This document shows positions 36,623 through 50,579 of a stretch of DNA of 64,000 nucleotides, piece after piece (the first letter of the stretch is position 1; every line of letters starts with the position of its first letter). The stretch comes from Candidatus Hydrogenedentota bacterium. GTDB lineage: Bacteria; Hydrogenedentota; Hydrogenedentia; Hydrogenedentales; JAGMZX01. Location: contig JAKQEQ010000138.1 in the NCBI GenBank assembly GCA_029556545.1, forward strand, positions 1-64,000. The letters are read 5' to 3'. The position numbers were made by a program, and so were the translations under genes. A model generated the notes under the pieces. That model was not told the origin of the DNA and searched no databases. It was given only the letters and a program-made list of their open reading frames with translations.

Positions 36623-37081
36623 GTGGAAAACCGGGCGCTGATTAAGCAGCTCTGGGAGCAGTTGGCCCCGGACTTGACCGAGCAAGGCTACGAATTGGTC
36701 GAACTCGAATACGCCCGGGGCGGACGTACCCCCGTGCTCCGGTTTTATGTGGACAAGGTCGGCGGTGGCGTGTCGTTGGACGATTGCGCGAAGGTCTCGC
36801 AACTATTGAGCGCACTGTTGGATAAATTGGACTTCATCGGCGGGCGATACGTGCTGGAAGTGTCATCGCCGGGCGTGGATCGTCCCTTGCGGCAGGCTGC
36901 GGATTTTCGGCGTTTTGCCGGGGAACCGGTGCGGTTGCAGAGCCTCGCGCCCGTCGAGGGGCGGTCGCGCTTTCGCGGGACGCTCGAAGGGATTGAGGAC
37001 GGGTTGATTCTGGTGGACTGCGACGGGAAACGGTGCGCGGTGCACATCGAGAATCTGAAGTCGGCGCGGTTGGATCGGTAG
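36623..37081 (+). CDS. rimP: Ribosome maturation factor RimP
   Basis: 152 residues from GTG 36623 (AAAGG 8 nt upstream). RimP binds pre-30S and promotes maturation. N-terminal alpha/beta domain with GYELVELEYARGGRTPVLRFYVDK and GGVSLDDCAKVSQLLSALLD, then YVLEVSSPGVDRPLR, and a C-terminal Sm-like domain (RFRGTLEGIEDGLILVDCDGK). It is first gene of rimP-nusA-infB-ylxP-rbfA/nrnA-truB-ribF and lies just downstream of the attenuator-like hairpin. Confidence 0.94.
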   Translation: MENRALIKQLWEQLAPDLTEQGYELVELEYARGGRTPVLRFYVDKVGGGVSLDDCAKVSQLLSALLDKLDFIGGRYVLEVSSPGVDRPLRQAADFRRFAGEPVRLQSLAPVEGRSRFRGTLEGIEDGLILVDCDGKRCAVHIENLKSARLDR

Positions 37082-37105
37082 CGTAACGTATTGAGGACAG
37101 GGAAG

Positions 37106-38284
37106 TTGGACCAGAATTTGCGCGTGATATTGCAGCAGCTCGAAGCGGAGAAGAGCATCGATCGGGCGACGCTCATCGAGGCAATCCGCAGTGCTATCGA
37201 GAGTGCCGCGCGGAAGAGTCTGAGTCAGGCCTCGAATATTGTGGTCGAGGTAGACGCGGACACCTTCGAATTCAAGGTTTACGAGATCCTGACGGTCGTG
37301 GATAAGGTGACGCACGCCGGGCAGGAGATGTTGATTGATGAGGCCCGCAAGTTGAATGCGGACGTCCAGGTGGGCAACCGGCTGAAAGTCCGCACCGAGC
37401 CGAAGGACTTTGGGCGCATCGCGGCCCAGACGGCGAAGCAGGTCATTATTCAGAAGATCAAGGATGCCGAACGCGACAAGATTTTTGATGAATTCAAGCA
37501 GCGGGAGGGCGAACTGGTCACCGGGATTGTGAAACGGATCAGCCACGGGAACATCATCGTTTCGATAGGCCGCGCGGAGGCGGTGCTGCCCTATCGCGAG
37601 CAGTCGCCGCGCGAGAATTTCAAGCCCGGCGACCGGATTCGGGCGTTTCTCTTCGAGGTGGAGAAGGGTCCCCGGGGCGCCCAGGTGATGCTGTCGCGGA
37701 GCGCGCCCGAGTTGGTTCGCGGGCTTTTTGAACTCGAAGTGCCGGAGATTTACGACGGCACGGTCGAGATACGGGCCATTGCGCGGGAACCGGGCGGTCG
37801 CACGAAGGTGGCAGTGTATTCGCATGACGCGAACGTGGACCCGGTGGGCGCGTGTGTGGGCATGAAGGGTTCGCGCGTGCGCGCGGTAGTGGAGGAATTG
37901 TGCGGCGAGAAGATTGATATTGTGCGTTGGAGCGACAATCCGATGGAGTTGTGCCGGAACGCGCTGAACCCGGCGGATATCCTTGACATGGAGCTTGATG
38001 AAGAGAACCGGTCGATCCACGTGATGGTGCCGCAGGACCAGCTTTCTCTGGCCATAGGCAAACGCGGTCAGAACGCGCGGCTGGCCTCGAAACTCATCGA
38101 ATGGAATATCGACATTCGCGGCGATGTGGAGCCGGGCGTGGCGGTCTATGCTCGCGAAGACAACGTGGAAGTGGTGGGGGACCCCGGCGAGGCTGCCCTG
38201 CTGCATGAGCCGGCGCCCGAAGAGGTCTCGGCGCCGGAGCGCCCAGAGGGTCCCGCGGAGGACGACGCTGCAACCGAGAGCTGA
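37106..38284 (+). CDS. nusA: Transcription termination/antitermination factor NusA
   Basis: 392 residues from TTG 37106 (GAGG 9 nt upstream), with TTG 37091 as alternative. The N-terminal RNA-polymerase-binding domain (about 1-125) is followed by S1 (GELVTGIVKRISHGNIIVSIGRAEAVLPYRE), KH1 (VGACVGMKGSRVRAVVEELCGEKIDIV) and KH2 (LSLAIGKRGQNARLASKLI). It lacks the C-terminal acidic repeats of E. coli NusA, and ends with a Pro/Glu-rich tail. NusA increases pausing at intrinsic terminators, so the hairpin before rimP could give autoregulation. Confidence 0.95.
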   Translation: MDQNLRVILQQLEAEKSIDRATLIEAIRSAIESAARKSLSQASNIVVEVDADTFEFKVYEILTVVDKVTHAGQEMLIDEARKLNADVQVGNRLKVRTEPKDFGRIAAQTAKQVIIQKIKDAERDKIFDEFKQREGELVTGIVKRISHGNIIVSIGRAEAVLPYREQSPRENFKPGDRIRAFLFEVEKGPRGAQVMLSRSAPELVRGLFELEVPEIYDGTVEIRAIAREPGGRTKVAVYSHDANVDPVGACVGMKGSRVRAVVEELCGEKIDIVRWSDNPMELCRNALNPADILDMELDEENRSIHVMVPQDQLSLAIGKRGQNARLASKLIEWNIDIRGDVEPGVAVYAREDNVEVVGDPGEAALLHEPAPEEVSAPERPEGPAEDDAATES

Positions 38285-38380
38285 GGAGTACAGTCCGGAT
38301 CGCGGTCGCGTCCGTTGCGCGGTTTCCAGTGAAGGTTGTACGACCGACCTAATGATGCATGCTTGGAGGTGAAAACCCGT

Positions 38381-41185
38381 ATGCCGACGATTGCCAAGGC
38401 GGCAGAGCGTCTCGACATGAGCGCGGAGGATGCCTTCGATGTCCTCCGACGGCTGCACTGCGACGTCGAGGGCGTCGAATCGGAGATCAGTGACGAACAA
38501 TGGGACATGCTCATCGAGATCGATGAGACCCCAGAGTCGTTCGAGCGCTATCAGAAGGAAATCGAGAAGAAGCTCGATCAGGACAAGAAGAAGAAGGAAA
38601 GATTGCAGAAAGCCGCGCAGAAACTGGCGGCGAAACGGAAGGCCGAGGCGAAGGCGAAAGCGAAGCCCAAGGCCAAAGCGAAGGCGAAGGCGAAGCCGAA
38701 GGCGGCGGCCAAGCGCCCGGCGCGCCGGAAGACAAAGGAAGAAGGGGAACCGGAAGAAGAGGCGGCGGCGGAAGGCGAGGAAGAAGGCGCCGAAGCAGCG
38801 CCCACCGCGGAAATCGTGCCTGACGAGGCGGTTTCCCCGCAGCCCGAGGGACTGGAGCCGCCTGCTTTGGTAATAGGCACGGCCATCGAGCGCGAAGTGT
38901 CGAAGGTGGAGGTATTGCGCGCCGACGGGACGTCTGTGGGTGCGCCGGACGTCGAGATCATCGAAGGATTGCTTCCCACGGAGAAGGAGGAGGAAGCGGA
39001 GGAGGAGGCGCACTTACCGGGACTGCTGGCGGAGGCGGAGCGACGTCAGGAACTGGAGGAACGCCGCAAGGCGAAACTGAAGCCGCTGCCGAAGCCGGAT
39101 CCCGAGGTTGTCGCGGAGGTGATTCGCCGCGCGAAGGAAAAGGACAAGAAGAAGGAAGCGCCGGGTGTGCTCACGGAGAAGCTGGAGCACAGCCTTGAGG
39201 AACTCGGGCGTTTCGGCAAGGGCAAGGGCGGCAAAGGGGGCAAGACCACCGCGCCCGGGAAGACGGCGCGGAAGAAGCAAAAGCGGATTGACCGCGCCCG
39301 GCTTGAAGAGGATATGCGGCGGGACGCCGCTGCGGTAATCCGGGATTTCCAGGCGGGTCTGCTGGATGGGCCGCGCAAGCGGCGGAAGAAACGCCCCCGG
39401 GAGGAGGCTGCAGTGCTTGATGAAACACCCGCGCCGGCGGTCATCGAAGTTCAGGAATCCATGACGGTCGAGCAGTTCGCGAACGCGGCCGGGTTGACGG
39501 TGAACGAGGTCATTCTCGAACTCATGGACGAGAATATGCTCGTCAATAAGAACTATAGCCTGGACATCGAGCTGATTCGAAAGCTGGCGAACAAGTATGG
39601 TTTCGACGTCCGAACGGTTATCCCGGAAGAAGAGGCGGTGATGACGGAGGAACCGGATGACCCGGCGGATTTGCGGCCGCGCCCGCCAGTGATTACCGTC
39701 ATGGGACATGTAGACCACGGCAAGACCACGCTGCTGGACGTGGTGCGGCGCTCAAGCGTAGCGGCGTCCGAGGTGGGCGGCATTACCCAGCACATCGCCG
39801 CGTACGACGTCCCGACAAGCACGGGGCGTCTGGTCTTTCTGGATACGCCGGGCCACGAAGCGTTCACGCAGATGCGCGCGCGCGGCGCGAAGGTCACGGA
39901 CATTGTGGTGCTTGTGGTCGCGGCGGACGATGGGGTGCGGCCGCAGACCGTCGAGGCAATCCATCATGCGAAGGCCGCCGAGGCGCCGATTGTGGTGGCG
40001 ATCAACAAGTGCGACAAGCCCGACGCGCAGCCGGACCGGGTGCGGCAGGAATTGACGCAATACGAATTGATTGACGAGAGTTGGGGGGGCAAGACGATCA
40101 TCAAGAGTATCTCAGCGAAGACGGGCGACGGCGTCGATGACCTGATGGAATTACTGGCGCTCCAGGCGGAGTCCCTCGAATTGAAGGCCAACCCGAACAA
40201 GCGCGCGCGGGGCGCCATTATCGAGTCGGAAATGAGCGTCGGCCAGGGGCCGGTAGCCTGGGTGCTCGTTCAGAACGGCACACTGCGCGTGCAGGACGAG
40301 TTCCTGGCCGGCGAGACCTTCGGCCGCGTGCGCACGTTGATGACCTCGGACGGGCGGCACGTGCGCGAAGCGGGACCGTCCACGCCCGTGCTGGTGACGG
40401 GCTTCAGCGAGCCGCCCAACGCGGGCGACATTTTCGTGGCGGTCGAGGACGAGCGCGCGGCCCGCAGCATCGTCGCCCAGCGCGCCACGTTGCGGCGGCA
40501 GAAGTCCGGCCCGGCGGTAAAGCGCGTGACGCTCGAGGACTTCCACGCGATGGTCGAGGCCGGCAAGGAGAAAGTGCTGAACGTTATCGTCAAGGCCGAC
40601 GTGCAGGGATCGGTGGACGTACTCCAATCCAGCCTTGCGCGGCTGGGCAACGAGGAGGTGCGCCTTGAGATCGTGCACGCGGCCGTGGGCGGCATCAACG
40701 AGTCCGACGTGCTGCTGGCGAGCGCGAGCGAGGCGGTGATTATCGGTTTCCACGTGACGGCGAACGCGCGGATTCGCAGGCTTGCCGAACAGGAAGGCGT
40801 GGAGATTCGCACGTATCGGATCATTTACGAAGTCATTGACGAGGTGCGTAACGCGCTCGAGGGGATGCTGGCCCCGGAGAAGCGGGAAGTCATCACCGGC
40901 CACCTCGAGATTCGACAGGTCTTCCGTTCTTCGGCTCACGGCAACATCGCGGGCTGCTACCAGACGGACGGCGAAACGGCGCGCGGGTCCCTCGTGCGTC
41001 TCCTGCGGGACGACGTGGTCATCCACGAGGGGCGCATCGAGTCTCTGCGGCGCGGCAAGGACGATGCGAGGTCTGTGTCCGCCGGATTCGAGTGCGGCAT
41101 CAAACTCGAGGGCTACGACGACATCCGGGAGGGAGACGTGGTCGAGGCGTACCGCGTCGAGGAGTTCGCGAAGACGTTCAATTGA
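38381..41185 (+). CDS. infB: Translation initiation factor IF-2
   Basis: 934 residues from ATG 38381 (GGAGGTG upstream). It brings initiator tRNA to the 30S subunit using GTP. A small N-terminal IF2_N-like domain (1-50) is followed by a highly charged Lys/Ala and Glu-rich linker (about 60-350), a second IF2_N (about 365-420) and the G domain from about 440 ([36 protein letters not shown]), then domains II-IV. YlxR and the L7Ae-like YlxQ genes, usual between nusA and infB in Gram-positives, are missing; only 96 bp separate the two genes. Confidence 0.96.
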
Positions 41186-41195
41186 GAGGCCGCGC

Positions 41196-41477
41196 GTGAC
41201 CATCGGTGTCCTGCACATCGACCTGATGATTCCCGGCGCCCGTTCGCTCAAGGACAAGCGGCGTGTCCTGAAGAGTCTCAAAGAACGGCTGCGCAACCGG
41301 TTCAACTGTTCGGTTGCGGAGACGGAGTATCAGGACCTGTGGGGCCGTGCGCGGCTGAGCGCGGCCGTGGTTTCCGCCGAGAGCCGTCACGCCAACGAGC
41401 AACTGAACGAGATTGTACGTTACGTATCGTTGGACCGCGCGGCCGTCATGGCTGACTACCGGATTGAGATGTTATGA
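41196..41477 (+). CDS. ylxP: DUF503/YlxP family protein
   Basis: 93 residues from GTG 41196, 10 bp after infB. The sequence (VTIGVLHIDLMIPGARSLKDKRRVLKSLKERLRNRF ... VAETEYQDLWGRARLSAAVVSAE) is typical of DUF503, the YlxP family found between infB and rbfA in Bacillus and other phyla. Suggested roles involve ribosome assembly; the exact function is not established. Its stop overlaps the next start by ATGA. Confidence 0.88.
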   Translation: MTIGVLHIDLMIPGARSLKDKRRVLKSLKERLRNRFNCSVAETEYQDLWGRARLSAAVVSAESRHANEQLNEIVRYVSLDRAAVMADYRIEML

Positions 41478-42814
41478 GGCAGAAAGTGAGACCGCAACGG
41501 GTGGCGGAGCTGATTCGCCACGAGATTGCGCAGTTGCTGACCAAGGGCTTGAAGGACCCTCGAATCGGCTTTGTGTCGGTCATGGGCGTGAAGCTCTCGC
41601 CGGACCTGCACTACGCGGACGTGTATGTGAGCCTGTACGGCACCGAGCAGGATCGGAAGAGCTCGCTCGTAGCCCTGCGCCGCTCGGCTGGCTGGGTGCG
41701 GCACGAGATCGGCAAGCACGTGCGGATGCGGTACACGCCGGAAATCCGCTTTTTCCCCGACGACTCGCTGGACCGCGTCTATCAACTCGAGGAGGTTTTC
41801 GAGCGGATTCACGATGAGGAGGGGCGGACACCGATGCGTAGGCTGGACCTCGACGAGATCGTCGCCGTATTACGCGAATGCAATTCCTTTGTACTGACGA
41901 CACACGTCGGCCCGGACGGCGACGCGGTCGGTTCGCTGCTGGGTTTGTGCCATCTGTTGCACGCGATGGGGAAATCGTCGGTGACGTGCGTCATGGCGGA
42001 CCCTGTGCCGCGTGCGTATGCGTTTCTGCCGGGCGCGGACCAGGTTCTCGCGGCGGACGCCGAACTGCCGGAGGCGGAATTGGCGGTGATCGTGGATGCG
42101 GCCCGATTCGATCGCATCGGCGCGGTTGCATTGCGCATTGAGCACACGCCTCGACTGCTGATCCTCGACCATCACCTTGAGGACGGGCCGCCGGGCGCGA
42201 TGGGCTTGGTCGATTCCTCGTATGCTGCGGTGGGTGAATTAGTGACGGAGTTGTTCGAGGCGTCGGGCATCCCGTTGAGCCGCGAGGCGGGCACGTGCCT
42301 GTATGTCGCGCAGGCGACGGATACGGGCGGTTATCGATTCTCGAACACGAATGCCCGATCCCACCGGATCGCGGCGCTGCTTCATGAAAGCGGTATCGAG
42401 GCCCACAGCCTCTGCGCCAGATTGTTCGAGGTCGTGTCGCCGCCGAAATTTCATCTCCTGCGCCGCATCCTTGACCGGATGGAATTCGCCGCTTCGGGCC
42501 GGGTGGCGTACACTTACGTGATGCCCGAGGACTTTGCGGAGTTGAACGCTCGGAAAGAAGACCTCGAGAATCTGGTCAATTACGCCCGCAATATCGAAGG
42601 CGTCGAAGTGGGCGTGTTGTTCTATGCGCTGAAACCCGGAGAAACCAAAGTGAGCTTACGCTCCGCGCCCGCGTTCAATGCTTCGGCTTTCCTGAACGGC
42701 TTCGGGGGCGGCGGGCATGCCGCGGCGGCGGGCGCGACGCTGCAACGCGCGTTGGAAGAGGTGCGCGGCGAAATCATAAGCGCTCTTGTGGGCGCGCTGG
42801 AACAGGATTCATGA
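41474..42814 (+). CDS. RbfA-NrnA fusion: ribosome-binding factor A joined to DHH phosphoesterase
   Basis: 446 residues in one open frame. Residues 1-118 are a complete RbfA (RPQRVAELIRHEIAQLLTKGLKDPRIGFVSVMGVKLSPDL ... TPEIRFFPDDSLDRVYQLEEVFERI), a KH-fold factor of 30S maturation. Residues 122-446 are NrnA, a DHH-DHHA1 nanoRNase/pAp phosphatase: HVGPDGDAVGS, VDAARFDRIG, ILDHHLE, YVAQATDTGGYRFSN and GFGGGGHAAAAGA are all intact. The two are usually adjacent separate genes. No stop lies between them, but GAGGAGGGG (41816-41824) and ATG 41834, codon 121, form a good internal start, so NrnA alone may also be made. ATGA overlaps on both sides. Confidence 0.9.
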   Translation: MRQKVRPQRVAELIRHEIAQLLTKGLKDPRIGFVSVMGVKLSPDLHYADVYVSLYGTEQDRKSSLVALRRSAGWVRHEIGKHVRMRYTPEIRFFPDDSLDRVYQLEEVFERIHDEEGRTPMRRLDLDEIVAVLRECNSFVLTTHVGPDGDAVGSLLGLCHLLHAMGKSSVTCVMADPVPRAYAFLPGADQVLAADAELPEAELAVIVDAARFDRIGAVALRIEHTPRLLILDHHLEDGPPGAMGLVDSSYAAVGELVTELFEASGIPLSREAGTCLYVAQATDTGGYRFSNTNARSHRIAALLHESGIEAHSLCARLFEVVSPPKFHLLRRILDRMEFAASGRVAYTYVMPEDFAELNARKEDLENLVNYARNIEGVEVGVLFYALKPGETKVSLRSAPAFNASAFLNGFGGGGHAAAAGATLQRALEEVRGEIISALVGALEQDS

Positions 42815-43701
42815 CCGGACTGCTGTTAGTGGACAAGCCCGTTGGAATGACTTCGCACGACGTGGTCGATCACATCCGCAGGGCGGCAGGCATCCGCCGG
42901 GTGGGGCACACGGGCACACTCGACCCCGGCGCCACGGGCCTGCTGATCCTGTGCCTCGGCAAGGCGACCCGACTGTCCGAGCACCTGACGGGTCTCGACA
43001 AGACCTATCAGGGCATCATGCGGCTGGGGGTGGTTACGGACTCCTACGACCTGGACGGGGCCGTCATCGCGGAAAACGCGGTGCCTCCGCTTTCGATGGA
43101 GGACATCCAGACGCGCTGTGACGCGTTCACGGGCGCGATCGAGCAGATGCCACCGATGGTGAGCGCCGTGAAGGTCGGCGGGCGGCGGTTGTACAAGGTT
43201 GCGCGGCGCGGCGAAGAGGTGGAGCGCAAACCCCGTCGCGTGACGGTTCGCGAGTTCAGCGTGCTTGCCTATGAACCGCCGGATGCGGAGATTCGTGTGG
43301 CGTGTTCGAGTGGGACCTACGTGCGCAGTCTATGTCATGAAGTGGGCCGGGCACTGGGCTGCGGCGCGGTGTTGGCGACGCTGCGGCGCACGTGGGTCGG
43401 CCGCTACGCCGTCGAGCAGGCAGCGCCGCTTTCGAGTTTCCAGAGTCCCGAAGACGTCACGGCCCGGCTCCTGCCCATGGGCGAGGCGCTGGATCTGCCC
43501 GCAGTGACCATCCACGATGCGGCGCGGGGCGCGTTGGGCGCGGGCGCGACGCTGGTCGGGTCGAATCTGCGAGGCGACTGCCCCGTGCACGAGGGTTGGG
43601 TGCAGATCAAGTCCGCGAAGGGAGAACTGCTGGCGCTGGGGACGGTGCAGCCGACGGCGATGGGCGTGTGCATTCACCCGAAGCGCGTGTTTACCGTATG
43701 A
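42811..43701 (+). CDS. truB: tRNA pseudouridine(55) synthase
   Basis: 296 residues from ATG 42811, overlapping the upstream stop. It makes the T-loop pseudouridine in tRNAs. Motifs: GLLLVDKPVGMTSHDVV, catalytic Asp in GHTGTLDPGATGLL, KTYQGIMRLG, QMPPMVSAVKVGGRRLYKVARRGEEVERKPRRV and CSSGTYVRSLCHEVG. The C-terminal PUA-like part has GNLRGD-like SNLRGDCPVHEGWVQI. Confidence 0.95.
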   Translation: MTGLLLVDKPVGMTSHDVVDHIRRAAGIRRVGHTGTLDPGATGLLILCLGKATRLSEHLTGLDKTYQGIMRLGVVTDSYDLDGAVIAENAVPPLSMEDIQTRCDAFTGAIEQMPPMVSAVKVGGRRLYKVARRGEEVERKPRRVTVREFSVLAYEPPDAEIRVACSSGTYVRSLCHEVGRALGCGAVLATLRRTWVGRYAVEQAAPLSSFQSPEDVTARLLPMGEALDLPAVTIHDAARGALGAGATLVGSNLRGDCPVHEGWVQIKSAKGELLALGTVQPTAMGVCIHPKRVFTV

Positions 43702-43746: not shown

Positions 43747-44679
43747 ATGCGTGTGATAGAGGACGTTCGCGCGGCGCGGGAGACGTTCGCGAACCCCGTC
43801 CTCACGATCGGCAGTTTCGACGGCGTACACTTGGGGCATCAACGGATTGTCGAGGAGTTGCGGCGGGCCGCCCGGGAAATCGACGGCACTGCCGCGCTGA
43901 TGACACTGCATCCCCATCCGCGCCAATTCTTTTGTCCCGAGACCGCACCGAATATCCTCACACCCTTGAAGAAGAAGACGGCCCTGCTTGAAGCGTTGGG
44001 CCTCGATGTGTTGTTTGTTTTGCCGTTCACGGCGGAGGTGGCCGACCTGGCGCCGGAAGCGTTCGTTGAAGAGGTTATCGTGGGCAAGTGTCGCGCCCGC
44101 ATGCTGGTGGTGGGGCATGATTTCGCATTCGGGAAGGGCGCGCGCGGCGACTATGAATTCCTGCAGGCTATCGCGCCGCGGTACGGGTTTGAGGTGCGCC
44201 AGGTGCCGGCGATCGTGATCCAGGGCGAGCGCGTCGGGAGCACAGGTATCCGCGAGCGGATTTTACAAGGCGAGGTGGACAAGGTTGAGCCGCTATTGGG
44301 ACGGAGGTACGCGATTGGCGGCGAGGTTGTGCGGGGCCGGGGCATCGGCGGCGCGCGGCTTGGTTTCCCGACCGCGAACGTCAAACCGCACAGCAATGCC
44401 GTGCCGGCTCATGGCGTGTACGCGGGGGAAGTGATCCTGGAAGACAAGCGCCTGCCCGCGGCTGTCAATATCGGCATTGCGCCGACTATTCTGCAGGAAG
44501 ACGTGACCATCGAGGCATATATCCTGGATTTTCATGAGAATATCGTGGGACGGGAGATCGAGGTGGAGTTTCACAAACGGCTGCGGCCCGAAAAGAAATT
44601 CAGTTCTCTCGATGAACTCATCCACGCCATCGAGCGTGACGTGGAAGCGGTCCGCACTTATTTTGGGCGTTCCGTATAG
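43747..44679 (+). CDS. ribF: Bifunctional riboflavin kinase / FAD synthetase
   Basis: 310 residues, normal length. N-terminal FMN adenylyltransferase domain (LTIGSFDGVHLGHQRIVEEL, VVGHDFAFGKGARGDYEFL, STGIRERILQGEVDKV) and C-terminal riboflavin kinase domain (GEVVRGRGIGGARLGFPTANV, PAHGVYAGEV, VNIGIAPTI, HKRLRPEKKFSSLDELIHAIERDV). It makes FMN and FAD. The position after truB is the conserved bacterial order. No FMN riboswitch is seen. Confidence 0.95.
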   Translation: MRVIEDVRAARETFANPVLTIGSFDGVHLGHQRIVEELRRAAREIDGTAALMTLHPHPRQFFCPETAPNILTPLKKKTALLEALGLDVLFVLPFTAEVADLAPEAFVEEVIVGKCRARMLVVGHDFAFGKGARGDYEFLQAIAPRYGFEVRQVPAIVIQGERVGSTGIRERILQGEVDKVEPLLGRRYAIGGEVVRGRGIGGARLGFPTANVKPHSNAVPAHGVYAGEVILEDKRLPAAVNIGIAPTILQEDVTIEAYILDFHENIVGREIEVEFHKRLRPEKKFSSLDELIHAIERDVEAVRTYFGRSV

Positions 44680-44950
44680 GAATGGACACCGGCGAACGAA
44701 GCGGCTGGTCCTATATACTGGGTGGGCGTGCCTCGTTTGCCGGGACTCCCTTGAAGTTCCTCCGAAACGAGGACGCGCCGGTGTGGAGATTGGAACCGAG
44801 CATGCCGCGGCGGGGTTTCATTGCACGGCCCGGCTGACGAGCGATACCGAGCAGTATTCCATGCGCTTCGTCCTAAATACACGCGACCGACGGCGTCCAT
44901 GCCGCACCGCAGGGCACGGTGATGGACGGGATGGACGATACGGACGCGAT

Positions 44951-46816
44951 GTGCGCCCAAGGCGTGCGTACGCGTCGTGCGCGGCTCTCTTTCTGCTGCT
45001 TTGCGTTGGGGGCGCATTGCTGCACTCTTGCACGCCGGCACGCATGAAGGCCGCCGCCGATGCCGAGGTCTACGGCGTTATTCAGGAGAAGACCCCCGAC
45101 GTGCCGGGGATGCACCCGGAATTCAGCATCGAGGAGAACAAGGAGTGGGAGGCGTCTGCGGGCTTGCCGCGGGTTGTGCAGCCGCGCGAGGAAATGGGCG
45201 AGTCCGCCGAGGCGGAGGTGGGCGCGTGGATCATCTCCCTTGAAAAGGCCCTCGAGATCGCCGTCAAGCGGAACCGGCAATACCAGAATCGCAAGGAGTC
45301 CGTCTATCTCCAGGCGCTGTCGCTTACCTTGGAACGGCACCGCTACACGCCAATTTTCTCCGCTGTTTTCGGCGGGCAGGTTGACCGCGACACGCGCGAC
45401 GTGAGCGAGGCTTCGACGTTCAGCCAGGCGACGGGCCTGACGGGGGACGTCCTCGGCGCGCTCGAAACGCTGACGGGGCAGCCCGCCGATCTGCTGAATC
45501 AGTATCAGGCCATCGTCGAGGAAGCGGGCGCGCTGGCGGGGCTCGATCGGCCGGAAACGCGGATCGAGGAGCGCTATCGGAGTTCCGGGCAGACGCGAGC
45601 GGGCGTAGACCTGCTGCTCAAGTCGGGCGGTCGGATTGCAGTCGACCTCACGAGTAATTTCCTGCGATTCCTGACGGGGGACCCGAGTACGAGCAGTTCG
45701 AGCGCCTTGGTGGGCAATCTGACCCAGCCCCTGCTGCGTGGTCGCGGCTCGCGGGTCGCGGCGGAGCGGCTTACGCAGGCGGAACGCGACCTTCTTTACG
45801 CTTTGCGGGATTTCACGCAGTACCGGAAGGATTTCTCGATCGAGATATGCACGGCGTACTACGGCGTGCTCGAAAACTTGGACGTGGTGCGCAACAATTG
45901 GCGCGGCCTGCAAAACTTCCGGCGCAGCGTCGCGCGCGAGCGCGCGCTCACCGTCGAGGGGCGCAGAACGCCAGCGGGCCTCGGTCGAATCGAGCAGGCG
46001 GAGTACAGCCGGGAGAACAGTTGGATCGAGTCCGTGCGGCGGTATCGCGAGAGCCTCGACCGGTTCAAGATTCAGTTGGGTCTCTCGACGGACGCGCCGA
46101 CTGTGTTGAACGAGCGCGAACTCGAGAGCCTGCGCGAGACGGGCCTGCGGCACCCCACGTTGAGCGCGGAGGAAGCGGTCGCGGTGGCGCTCGCCGCCCG
46201 GCTGGACCTGTACAACGAGCATGATCGCATCGCAGATGCGGAGCGACGCGTCGGCGTGGCGGCGGACGCGCTGAAGCCGAGTCTCGACTTTGTGATGAGC
46301 GGGAGTGTCGAGACGCCACCGGGCGGCAATTACACGGACTTGGACCTCGACCGCACACGTTGGAGCGCGGGTTTCGACACCGACCTCGATTTGGACAAGA
46401 AGGCGGAGCGCAATGCGTACCGGGCCGCGTTGATCGATTACGAACGCGCGTCGCGGGCCTTCACGCTCGCCGAGGACAACGTGAAGCTGGCCGTGCGCGA
46501 GCGGTGGCGCAGTCTCGAGCAGGCGAAACGGAACTATGAAATCGCCCTCAAGAGCGTGGGACTGAACCAGCGCCGCGTCGAGGAGCAGGACCTTCTGGCG
46601 GAACTGGGTCGCGCCACCGTGCTCGATCAGGTCGATGCGCAGAACGACTTGACGGCGTCCGAAAACGACCTGACAGCGGCACTGGTGCGCCACACGATCG
46701 CGCGTTTGGAATTCTGGCGCGATATGGGCATCCTGTACATCAAGGAAAACGGACAGTGGGAGGACGTCGTCGATGACGCAGTCGAACGACCGTCGGACGT
46801 CGCCGCCGCGCGCTAA
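44951..46816 (+). CDS. TolC-like outer-membrane efflux lipoprotein
   Basis: About 621 residues from GTG 44951; ATG 44861 is another option, and neither has a clear ribosome site. The signal ASCAALFLLLCVGGALLHSC-TPA ends in a probable lipobox. A coiled, Ala/Glu/Arg-rich body with two OEP domains (about 110-350 and 370-610) matches the TolC/OprM family: SLEKALEIAVKRNRQYQNRKESVYLQAL, GNLTQPLLRGRGSRVAAERLTQAERDLLYALRDF. Between them is a longer than usual periplasmic segment. It forms the outer-membrane duct for the adaptor and MacAB-like genes that follow. An 8-bp inverted repeat (CCTCGTTT at 44731, AAACGAGG at 44765) and a TATACT at 44714 lie in the leader. Confidence 0.82.
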   Translation: MRPRRAYASCAALFLLLCVGGALLHSCTPARMKAAADAEVYGVIQEKTPDVPGMHPEFSIEENKEWEASAGLPRVVQPREEMGESAEAEVGAWIISLEKALEIAVKRNRQYQNRKESVYLQALSLTLERHRYTPIFSAVFGGQVDRDTRDVSEASTFSQATGLTGDVLGALETLTGQPADLLNQYQAIVEEAGALAGLDRPETRIEERYRSSGQTRAGVDLLLKSGGRIAVDLTSNFLRFLTGDPSTSSSSALVGNLTQPLLRGRGSRVAAERLTQAERDLLYALRDFTQYRKDFSIEICTAYYGVLENLDVVRNNWRGLQNFRRSVARERALTVEGRRTPAGLGRIEQAEYSRENSWIESVRRYRESLDRFKIQLGLSTDAPTVLNERELESLRETGLRHPTLSAEEAVAVALAARLDLYNEHDRIADAERRVGVAADALKPSLDFVMSGSVETPPGGNYTDLDLDRTRWSAGFDTDLDLDKKAERNAYRAALIDYERASRAFTLAEDNVKLAVRERWRSLEQAKRNYEIALKSVGLNQRRVEEQDLLAELGRATVLDQVDAQNDLTASENDLTAALVRHTIARLEFWRDMGILYIKENGQWEDVVDDAVERPSDVAAAR

Positions 46817-48557
46817 GCGCGCCGGCGGGCGTGGATGGCTATGGAAGGCGCTGGTAGTTCTCGGCGTCGTTGCCGTGGCCTATTATCTCTTGCGCGACGG
46901 CGAGACGGGTGCGTCCGCGGGCACGACCTTTGTGGCGCGCCGCGGTCCCCTCGAGATCGTCGTGCTCGAAGGCGGCAGCATCGAGGCGCTCGAGTCCGTC
47001 GAGCTCAAGTCGGAAGTCAAGGGCGACACGAAGATCATCAGCATCGTGGAAGAAGGCTATTTCGTCACGGAGGAGGACGTGTCCAACGGCCTGGTGCTTG
47101 TCGAGCTTGAGACGACGAAACTGCGCGATGACCAGGTGCAACAGGAACTCGAGTACCAGAACGCCTCCGCGAGCTACACGGACGCGCGCGAGCAATTCGA
47201 AATCCAGCGGAACCAAAACGAGAGCGATATCCAGAAGTCGTTGTTGGACGTGAAATTTGCGCTTATGGATTTCGAGAAGTACCTCGGCGCGGTAATGGCG
47301 CGCGAAATCATCCGCGTCGTCGGGCTGGAGACAGTGGCGACGGATATCATGAAGAACCATGAGGCAAGCATGCTTGCCGATGCGACCGACCCGGCGGCGG
47401 CGTTAGCGGAGGCACCGCCGTTTCGACGCCAAGCCATTGATTTCACGGCATACGCGGATCCGGATCGCTTGGGAAACGGCGAAGCGGGCCAGCGGGTGCG
47501 CAAGCTCGAGGATGACTTGGTGCTTGCGGAGAAAGAGGTGGGCCTTGCGCAATCCAAGCTGCAGGGGACGCAGCGGCTTTTCGAGAAGGAGTTTGTCACG
47601 CGGGACGAACTCGAGAACGACGAGATGGCGCTGCGCCGCAGCGAAATCGCGCTCGAATCCGCGCGCACGAGCAAGGAACTCTTCATCAAGTACGAGTTTC
47701 CGAAGCAGGCGGAAAAACTGCTCTCCGATTACGAAGAGGCGCTGCGCAAGCTCGAACGGACCCGCAAGCAGGCCGTCTCGCAGATGGCACAGGCGGAGGC
47801 GAAGCTGAAGTCCGCCGAGGCCCGATTCACTTTGCAGACGCAGCGGCGCAAGGAAATTCAGGAGCAGATCGAGAAGTGCACCATTCGCGCGACGACGCCG
47901 GGACTCGTCGTCTACGGCGCGCGGGAGCGTCGCTCGTGGGAGGAAATTCGGATTGAGGAAGGCGCGTCGGTGCGGGAGCGCCAAGGTATCATCACCATCC
48001 CGAACACGCGACAAATGACCGCGAAGGTCAAGATTCACGAAGCGTACATCGAGCGGATCGCGCGGGGCCAGCAGGCGCGGATCAAGGTGGATGCGCATCC
48101 GGACCGCCCACTTACGGGCGTAGTCTCGCGTATCGGCGTGCTGCCGGACGCCCAGAACCGCTGGATGAACCCGGACCTGAAGGTTTACGACACCACAGTC
48201 ACGATCGACGGGACGCATGAGTGGCTGAAGCCGGGGTTGAGCGCGCAGGTCGAGATCATCGTGGACCGTCTCGACGACGTGCTGCAGGTGCCGCTCCAGG
48301 CGGTCTCCGAGGAGAATGGGCAGCGGATCTGCTACGTGGCCGGAGGCGGTGGCGCCGAGCGGCGCGTGGTGCAGACGGGATCCTTTAGCGACGTGTTCAT
48401 CGAGATCAAGAGCGGTATCACGGCCGGCGACCGGGTACTGCTGCGCGCCCCGTCGTCCGGCGCGGAGCGACCGGCCGCCGTTTCCGATTCCGAGCAGGAG
48501 GGGCGTCCGCGCAGGCGGGAACCCGCCGGCGAGCGTCGGGAAGAGGGCGGATCATGA
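46773..48557 (+). CDS. HlyD/MacA-type periplasmic adaptor protein
   Basis: 594 residues, start overlapping the TolC-like gene by 44 bp. One N-terminal membrane helix (WKALVVLGVVAVAYYLL), a lipoyl-like half (VARRGPLEIVVLEGGSIEALESVELKSEV), a long coiled-coil hairpin (about 115-365), the second lipoyl half (CTIRATTPGLVVYGARE) and beta-barrel/membrane-proximal domains (GQQARIKVDAHPDRPLTGVVSRIG; LKPGLSAQVEIIVDRLDDVLQVPLQAV). The adaptor is about 200 residues longer than MacA (371), largely through the hairpin. It links the ABC transporter to the outer-membrane duct. Confidence 0.9.
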   Translation: MTQSNDRRTSPPRAKRAGGRGWLWKALVVLGVVAVAYYLLRDGETGASAGTTFVARRGPLEIVVLEGGSIEALESVELKSEVKGDTKIISIVEEGYFVTEEDVSNGLVLVELETTKLRDDQVQQELEYQNASASYTDAREQFEIQRNQNESDIQKSLLDVKFALMDFEKYLGAVMAREIIRVVGLETVATDIMKNHEASMLADATDPAAALAEAPPFRRQAIDFTAYADPDRLGNGEAGQRVRKLEDDLVLAEKEVGLAQSKLQGTQRLFEKEFVTRDELENDEMALRRSEIALESARTSKELFIKYEFPKQAEKLLSDYEEALRKLERTRKQAVSQMAQAEAKLKSAEARFTLQTQRRKEIQEQIEKCTIRATTPGLVVYGARERRSWEEIRIEEGASVRERQGIITIPNTRQMTAKVKIHEAYIERIARGQQARIKVDAHPDRPLTGVVSRIGVLPDAQNRWMNPDLKVYDTTVTIDGTHEWLKPGLSAQVEIIVDRLDDVLQVPLQAVSEENGQRICYVAGGGGAERRVVQTGSFSDVFIEIKSGITAGDRVLLRAPSSGAERPAAVSDSEQEGRPRRREPAGERREEGGS

Positions 48558-49255
48558 GCGATGCGCCGCTGGCCGCGTTGCGCGACGTGCGCAAGACGTA
48601 CTTCATGGGGGCGGTGCAAGTGGACGCGCTCCGGGGCGTCGACATCGCGTTTCACCGGGGCGAGTACGTCAGCATCATGGGGCCGTCCGGCTGCGGCAAG
48701 AGCACGTTGCTCAACGTACTTGGCTGCCTCGACCGGCCGAGCGCGGGCGCCTATTTCCTCGATGGCGAGGACGTGGCCGGGCTCACGGACGACGACCTTT
48801 CCGAGATTCGCGGCGGGCGGCTGGGTTTCGTGTTTCAGTCCTATAATCTGATTCAGCAGCTTTCCGTTCTCGAAAACATTGTTGTGCCGCTGTATTACCA
48901 AGGCGTATCCGAGCGGCGCGCCCACGCGATCGGCGCGGAACTCGCCGAGCGGGTGGGGCTGAGCGACCGGCTGCGGCACCGCCCGTTCGAGTTGTCGGGC
49001 GGTCAGCAGCAGCGCGTCGCCATCGCGCGGGCGCTGGTGAACGATCCGCTGCTGATCCTGGCCGACGAGCCGACGGGCAACTTGGACTCGAAGTCGGGCG
49101 CGGAAATCATGCAGTTGTTCGACGATCTGCACGGGCAGGGCAAGACCATCATCATGGTGACGCACGATGCCTCGATCGGCGCGCGATCGGACCGGACCGT
49201 GCGCCTGCGCGACGGCGTGGTGGAGGAGGATACGCGCAATGAGCGCGTTGCCTAG
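48554..49255 (+). CDS. MacB-type ABC transporter ATPase
   Basis: 233 residues; ATG 48554 overlaps the adaptor stop (ATGA). Walker A GPSGCGKSTLLN, Q-loop FVFQSYNLIQQLS, signature LSGGQQQRVAIARALVNDP, Walker B LILADEPTGNLDSKSG, H-loop IMVTHD. In the E. coli protein MacB this domain is fused to the permease; here it is separate, as in LolD and YknY. It drives the mechanotransmission export system. Confidence 0.94.
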   Translation: MSDAPLAALRDVRKTYFMGAVQVDALRGVDIAFHRGEYVSIMGPSGCGKSTLLNVLGCLDRPSAGAYFLDGEDVAGLTDDDLSEIRGGRLGFVFQSYNLIQQLSVLENIVVPLYYQGVSERRAHAIGAELAERVGLSDRLRHRPFELSGGQQQRVAIARALVNDPLLILADEPTGNLDSKSGAEIMQLFDDLHGQGKTIIMVTHDASIGARSDRTVRLRDGVVEEDTRNERVA

Positions 49256-50579
49256 CGCGCGGCAACTTTACCGGGCGTTGACGCCGGCGCGGCTCAAGCG
49301 CACGGTGCAGCTTGGTTTCAAGAGTCTCTGGGTGCATCGGCTGCGTTCGCTGCTGACCGTGCTCGGGATCGTGTTCGGCGTGTGCTCCGTAATCGCCATG
49401 CTGGCGGTGGGCGAAGGCGCGAGCTACGAGGCGCAGGAGCAAATCCGGCGGCTCGGCAGCACGAACATCATCCTGCAAAGTCTCAAGCCGCTCGAGGACG
49501 AAAGTATCTCGCGGGAACAAAGCCACGTCCTCGAATATGGCTTGACCTACAAGGACATGACGCGCATCGCCGCGTCGATCCCCGGTATTCGCCTGATGAT
49601 GCCGGGCCGCATTATCCAGACCTTTGTGTGGAACGGCCCGTACCGCGTGGACGCGGAGATCATGGGCACCCTGCCGTTCTTTCCCGAGATACGCGGGCTA
49701 CGGCTGGCCTCGGGCCGCTTTTTCAGCGACATCGAGACGGAGACGGCCGCGAACGTTTGTATCCTCGGCGCCGCCGCGGCGGAGCGGCTCTTTCCCATCG
49801 ACGCGCCGGTGGGGCGGAGCGTGCGTATCGGCAGTGATTATTACCGCGTGGTGGGCGTCATCGAAGCGGAGAGCGCGGCGTCCATGGGTGGCGCGACGGC
49901 GTCGGGAAATGGGGCCGGCGACGCGCGACAGGCCGTCGCGCGACCCCGCGTCTATATCCCCCTGGGCGCGGCGAAGGCCCGCTTCGGCGAAGTGCTGATG
50001 AAGCGGAGCGCGGGCAGCTTCGAGGCGGAGCGGGTGCAACTGCACGAGGCGACGGTGCAGGTGGCGTCCGTCGAGGACGTCGAGGAGACGGCGCGCATCA
50101 TCGGCGACATTCTGCGGGAGACGCATAAGAAGCGGGACTACGCGGTCATCGTGCCGCTCGAATTGCTGCGGCAGGCGGAACAAACCAAGCGGATATTCAA
50201 CGTCGTACTCGGGGCGATTGCCGCGATCTCGCTATTGGTCGGCGGTATCGGCATCATGAACATCATGCTGGCGAGCGTCACCGAGCGGACACGCGAGATC
50301 GGGATTCGCCGTGCGCTAGGCGCGCGCAAACGCGACATCACCGTGCAGTTCCTGGTCGAAACGGTGATTCTGTCCGGCGCGGGCGGGATCATCGGCGTGG
50401 CCTTGGGCGTCGTCATCCCGTTCCTTATCACCGTGTTCGCCGGCATGCAGACGATCATCACGCCGTGGGCGCCGCTCGTGGCCTTCTCCATATCCGGGCT
50501 GGTCGGCGTCGTATTCGGCATCTACCCCGCGCGCCGCGCCGCCAATATGGACCCGGTCGAAGCGTTACGGCATGAGTAG
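49239..50579 (+). CDS. MacB-type ABC transporter permease
   Basis: 446 residues; ATG 49239 overlaps the ATPase by 17 bp. One N-terminal helix (LWVHRLRSLLTVLGIVFGVCSVIAML), a large periplasmic MacB-core domain (about 60-305) and three C-terminal helices with the FtsX signature NIMLASVTERTREIGIRRALGARKRDITVQFLVETVILSGAGGIIG and ARRAANMDPVEALRHE. With the adaptor and TolC-like protein it should form a tripartite exporter of peptides, siderophores, lipopeptides or lipoproteins. Confidence 0.93.
   Translation: MSALPSARQLYRALTPARLKRTVQLGFKSLWVHRLRSLLTVLGIVFGVCSVIAMLAVGEGASYEAQEQIRRLGSTNIILQSLKPLEDESISREQSHVLEYGLTYKDMTRIAASIPGIRLMMPGRIIQTFVWNGPYRVDAEIMGTLPFFPEIRGLRLASGRFFSDIETETAANVCILGAAAAERLFPIDAPVGRSVRIGSDYYRVVGVIEAESAASMGGATASGNGAGDARQAVARPRVYIPLGAAKARFGEVLMKRSAGSFEAERVQLHEATVQVASVEDVEETARIIGDILRETHKKRDYAVIVPLELLRQAEQTKRIFNVVLGAIAAISLLVGGIGIMNIMLASVTERTREIGIRRALGARKRDITVQFLVETVILSGAGGIIGVALGVVIPFLITVFAGMQTIITPWAPLVAFSISGLVGVVFGIYPARRAANMDPVEALRHE

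Follow-up and report, generated by a model that had tools for sequence, protein, structure and literature searches.

In the 64,000-nt stretch of a Candidatus Hydrogenedentota bacterium genome analysed here (the window; positions 1 to 64,000 of contig JAKQEQ010000138.1), rbfA and nrnA form one gene. A single open frame (41474-42814) runs from a complete RbfA into a DHH-DHHA1 phosphoesterase with intact motifs, as a preliminary description of the window had proposed, and this is confirmed by the open reading frame, by Pfam and by the invariance of the motifs in 33 fused genes. RbfA takes part in building the small ribosomal subunit, whereas enzymes of the NrnA type degrade the shortest RNA fragments. 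Their joining is genuine and of long standing, and it has come about on more than one occasion. On our best explanation, the gene would encode one bifunctional RbfA-NrnA protein that arose through an ancestral 1-nt deletion, has been kept since and docks on the 30S subunit; taken as a whole, we give this reading a probability of about 0.6. The finding of the fusion is solid, and the mechanism is less so. A search of the literature returned no report of an RbfA-NrnA fusion; domain-architecture databases (InterPro, UniProt) lay outside that search, and an unpublished annotation is possible. Both domains are known, while their joined architecture was not found in the searched literature. The features of the gene and its neighbours are listed in Table 1.

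Table 1. Coordinates of the fusion gene, its parts and the adjoining genes in the window
Feature	Position	Strand	Basis
rbfA::nrnA fusion gene, 446 aa	41474..42814	+	Single ATG-started open frame; Pfam RBFA, DHH and DHHA1; same fusion in 32 other Hydrogenedentota genomes
RbfA KH domain, residues 6-108	41489..41797	+	PF02033 and TIGR00082 over cut-off; sole RbfA match in the genome
C-terminal RbfA helix, residues 98-115 of the model	41765..41818	+	AlphaFold2; counterpart of the S7-directed helix in the S. aureus map of 30S with RbfA (PMC9917171)
Junction/linker, residues 116-125	41819..41848	+	Alignment of 33 fused genes; pN/pS; pLDDT about 71
SD-like GAGGAGGGG and in-frame ATG (codon 121), possible lineage-specific internal start of free NrnA	41816..41836	+	Energy -12.8 kcal/mol
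DHH catalytic domain, residues 140-279; motifs HxxPDGD, D208, DHH, TDT	41891..42310	+	Pfam PF01368
DHHA1 substrate domain, residues 343-437; SxR and GGGH motifs	42500..42784	+	Pfam PF02272
DUF503-type gene, stop overlaps fusion start (ATGA)	41197..41477	+	Sequence
truB, start overlaps fusion stop (ATGA)	42811..43701	+	Named from sequence and synteny

The N-terminal half matches the Pfam RBFA family at residues 6-108 (E 3e-32; PF02033, 111 bits against a cut-off of 34.7). It also scores 102 bits against TIGR00082, whose cut-off is 51, and therefore counts as a whole RbfA domain; the KDPRxGF and DLxYA motifs of this half are conserved. In the C-terminal half, the DHH (140-279) and DHHA1 (343-437) domains both exceed their Pfam cut-offs (PF02272, 50 bits against 25.9), and the motifs HVGPDGD (144-150), D208, DHH (232-234), TDT (282-284) and GGGH (412-415) are all intact. 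Across the 33 fused homologues, H144, D148, D150, D208, DHH 232-234 and D283 are invariant, so that motifs I-IV are complete, and GGGH and R396 of DHHA1 are likewise invariant. On the other hand, the score against NF053633, the NCBIfam NrnA equivalog, is 119.7 bits, below the cut-off of 350; consequently, the enzyme half is called NrnA-type and is not assigned to that equivalog.

In the AlphaFold2 model of the fusion (mean pLDDT 93.7, pTM 0.75), both domains are confidently folded and are joined by a short linker with a pLDDT of about 71, the linker and the inter-domain orientation being uncertain. The RbfA half is modelled as H-E-E-H-H-E-H, that is, a KH fold with a C-terminal helix, with pLDDT 88-95 over residues 11-100. 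The fold search ranks T. maritima TM1595, whose structure was determined with pApA, at the top (E 1e-32, 31-32% identity), along with M. tuberculosis Rv2837c. The enzyme half shares its fold and motifs with these and other NrnA/DhhP-type DHH-DHHA1 phosphodiesterases, including B. subtilis NrnA, but differs from them in having RbfA fused N-terminally. Similarly, the RbfA half resembles the RbfA described by TIGR00082/PF02033 in its full-length KH domain, its single copy and its infB-rbfA-truB operon, whereas a 330-residue enzyme takes the C-terminal place that is occupied in stand-alone RbfA by a short, variable tail. Through its DHH part, the fusion also gives weak matches to NF011110 (DHH protein/ribosomal protein L9) and NF041569 (A-adding tRNA nucleotidyltransferase), which likewise combine a DHH-DHHA1 part with a ribosome or tRNA protein; according to their family descriptions, they are set apart by a different partner and a different DHH subfamily.

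The source genome is a draft of 6.1 Mb in 195 contigs and is 96% complete. RbfA is present there in a single copy (one genomic match), together with one diadenylate cyclase; a family search, positive in ten control genomes, found no RNase_T-family exonuclease such as Orn in this genome. Two further DHH proteins are encoded, namely, a 594-aa frame that is probably RecJ, judged by its length, and a 345-aa DHH-DHHA1 protein (L144:979-2016, minus strand, contig C19) that is weakly like manganese-dependent pyrophosphatases and might act beside the fusion in turning over dinucleotides or pAp. Given the single RbfA, the lack of an Orn-type exonuclease, and the motifs and fold of the enzyme half, the fusion is the best candidate for the nanoRNase or pApA phosphodiesterase of the cell. 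The gene order is nusA-infB-DUF503-[rbfA::nrnA]-truB-ribF, the neighbours being named from sequence and synteny; the upstream neighbour is a presumed member of the DUF503 family, so named from the usual make-up of the operon. Genes for TolC-like and HlyD-like proteins, an ABC ATPase and a MacB-like permease stand right after ribF (44534-50579 of the window, read by eye from the translations). Antisense open reading frames of 716, 234 and 384 aa lie opposite nusA and infB (36863-41305, minus strand) and are probably by-products of high-G+C coding.

A search of relatives for frames covering both domains, which the preliminary description had called for, showed the fusion in 33 of the 59 readable Hydrogenedentota genomes and separate adjacent rbfA and nrnA genes in the other 26; nine more of the 68 genomes could not be judged owing to no match, a partial match or a contig break. 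The fusion is present in most families of the phylum, the 32 main fused genes spanning nine of them (f1, f2 and f5-f11), whereas genomes of f3 and f4 live without it, as do the Bacillota loci examined. Separate genes in relatives had been named beforehand as grounds for discarding the fusion; such relatives exist, but the 26 split genomes stand apart within the phylum, and the fusion is not refuted by them. Among the 78 Bacillota loci, all chosen by similarity to the fusion, none is fused. Within the loci examined, which are no measure of bacteria in general, rbfA and nrnA adjoin each other, whether as two genes or as one, at 78 of 78 Bacillota loci and at 14 of 20 from other phyla. At least three single-frame, three-domain fusions occur among 223 genomes of other phyla. 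G098 (L145) is the sole genome examined of its phylum; G200 (L146) shares the fusion with G293, the only other genome of its phylum, at 57% identity, so that the fusion has been kept in two genera; and G101 (L147) is fused while its three mates in a small phylum are split. The linkers differ among these fusions, which points to independent origins. Fusing is particular to the rbfA-nrnA junction within the infB-DUF503-rbfA-nrnA-truB operon: the 55-58 infB-DUF503, DUF503-rbfA and nrnA-truB junctions of Hydrogenedentota include no fusion, and neither do those in the loci examined from Bacillota or other phyla.

The junction itself is constrained. Aligned with one another, the 33 fused proteins show no gap over residues 109-139, and pairwise placement puts codon 121 at 120 codons, free of gaps, in 32 of them; Pro120 is found in 31 of 33, and residue 121 is Met, Leu or Phe. 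In twelve related pairs, pN/pS is 0.18 over codons 109-125, compared with 0.23 for NrnA and 0.10 for RbfA, values of which only the contrast between regions is meaningful because synonymous sites are near saturation. The low linker ratio and the gap-free alignment show that the junction is translated as protein and is under purifying selection. This bears on the possibility that the fusion is near-neutral, a tolerated frameshift in an overlapping gene pair, with the phosphoesterase serving soluble substrates and gaining nothing from RbfA. Both domains carry ordinary motifs, their relatives work separately, and the gene overlap places a fusion one mutation away, all of which would fit such drift. 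Against it, one old event has been kept in nine families and recurs elsewhere, the flanking ATGA junctions have never fused, and the linker is constrained, although none of these points demonstrates that the join has a function. We regard a near-neutral origin as possible but doubtful.

The preliminary description also drew attention to a ribosome site and an ATG at 41834 in the same frame, from which free NrnA might be made. The site is present: the ATG (41834-41836) is codon 121, AGGAGG lies 11 nt upstream, and the anti-SD duplex energy of -12.8 kcal/mol is unsurpassed among the 1,721 ATGs that the window contains over its two strands (a fraction of 0.0006, that is, this one ATG, is at or below it), where sampled real genes make only moderate use of SD sequences. 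In this genome and in a congener (-9.5) the site is a strong one, but an internal ribosome site is not supported as a general feature, since the median energy at the internal ATG of the fused homologues is -4.4, compared with -5.8 at split nrnA starts and -3.1 at other internal ATGs; the energy is near zero in four fused genes of f10, and Met121 is lost in five genes.

It is conceivable that the gene has two products, with initiation at codon 121 yielding free NrnA beside the fusion. The exceptional SD-like context in the window, the presence of Met121 in 28 of the 33 fused homologues and energies better than those at other internal ATGs (P 0.0008) are consistent with this, yet we consider it unlikely. 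Residue 121 is Phe in three genes and Leu in two, these losses spanning three families; one of these genes (L018) lacks any ATG, GTG or TTG between codons 96 and 140, and another (L028) has only a GTG at codon 102. Pro120 is retained in all five genes without Met121, which makes the site look structural. Compared with synonymous-codon resampling, the SD energies of the fused homologues are barely better than the null (mean z -0.40, SE 0.16), and the null for the window reaches -12.8 in 8% of synonymous draws. Nor is synonymous divergence reduced over the SD zone (codons 114-120), where pS is 0.64, like the surroundings. Conservation in relatives of an internal ATG with a ribosome site, which the preliminary description had suggested looking for, is not supported by the loss of the start codon in 5 of 33 fused orthologues, by the SD energies against the synonymous null or by the undiminished synonymous divergence. 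Met121 seems to be a remnant of the former nrnA start, kept as a hydrophobic linker residue. Codon 121 may still start translation in the genus of the window and add some free NrnA, which would be neither needed by the fusion nor conserved, and the fusion would not depend on it.

The split relatives may explain how the single frame arose. In all but one of the 26, a partial match, nrnA lies in the +1 frame relative to rbfA, and it typically begins about 14 nt before the rbfA stop, out of frame. From a conserved Ile codon to the nrnA ATG, the distance is 25 nt in split genes (L112, L130) and 24 nt in a fused one (L003); consequently, a net 1-nt deletion turns the split arrangement into the fused one. 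The 32 main fused genomes form one clade (SH-aLRT 99) in a tree that was built from InfB, TruB, DUF503, RbfA and NrnA, omitting the linker, and that included ten nearer outgroups. The preferred, though provisional, interpretation is one early fusion in the ancestor of the nine families, most simply by such a deletion in a short out-of-frame stop/start overlap. The reverse direction, in which the ancestor of the phylum already had the fusion and f3 and f4 were split again by frameshift, is hinted at by a three-marker tree rooted on Bacillota alone, which nests the split clade inside the fused set with support of 81 at the key node. This is not upheld with nearer outgroups: five markers return the fused clade at the support given above, and with three markers, constraining the fused clade raises the likelihood. 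Fission is therefore quite improbable as the direction of change. One fused genome (G017, locus L020) is placed among the split genomes of f3, and its linker is three codons shorter by pairwise placement; it looks independent, being either a second fusion event or an indel error in that one draft genome. For the gene in the window, an assembly or sequencing error near 41830 that removed a stop or shifted the frame might be entertained, as the genome is a draft and 1 nt separates fused from split, but it is excluded for practical purposes by the 32 other fused genomes, the gap-free linker and a pN/pS far below 1.

Returning to the reading of one bifunctional protein, an ordinary RbfA would form the N-terminal half and an ordinary NrnA/TmPDE-type DHH-DHHA1 phosphoesterase the C-terminal half. 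The latter would convert pApA/pGpG-type dinucleotides, RNAs of 2-5 nt and perhaps pAp to mononucleotides. In the map of the S. aureus 30S-RbfA complex, the C-terminal RbfA helix reaches towards S7 (PMC9917171). Because the enzyme follows directly on this helix, it is natural to suppose that the enzyme is brought to maturing 30S subunits by the RbfA half, with the helix near S7 and the mRNA channel; the clearance of short RNA and dinucleotides would then be tied physically and stoichiometrically to 30S assembly. Tethering of the phosphoesterase to the ribosome is plausible. Mitochondrial RBFA also carries a functional C-terminal extension, which lies close to S7 and to the path of the mRNA (PMC9917171); it is not an enzyme, and the likeness drawn here is one of position. 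Several NrnA enzymes are reported to be dimeric (PMC5593865), and dimerization of this type might clash with 30S binding. A more specific proposal, which we hold to be rather remote, places the phosphoesterase on immature 30S subunits, kept close to S7 and the mRNA channel by the C-terminal helix of RbfA. There it would clear short RNA or dinucleotides, or else sense the turnover of pApA/c-di-AMP, and so couple 30S release to the status of nanoRNA or nucleotide signals.

We know of no established reason for the neighbourhood of rbfA and nrnA, which is seen in many of the genomes examined. An old, recurrent and junction-specific fusion suggests an advantage in having RbfA and NrnA at one site or in a fixed ratio. 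The fusion provides one polypeptide with which to ask whether 30S maturation and the clearance of short RNA and dinucleotides are linked, as well as an example of an out-of-frame gene overlap turning into a fusion in a single step.
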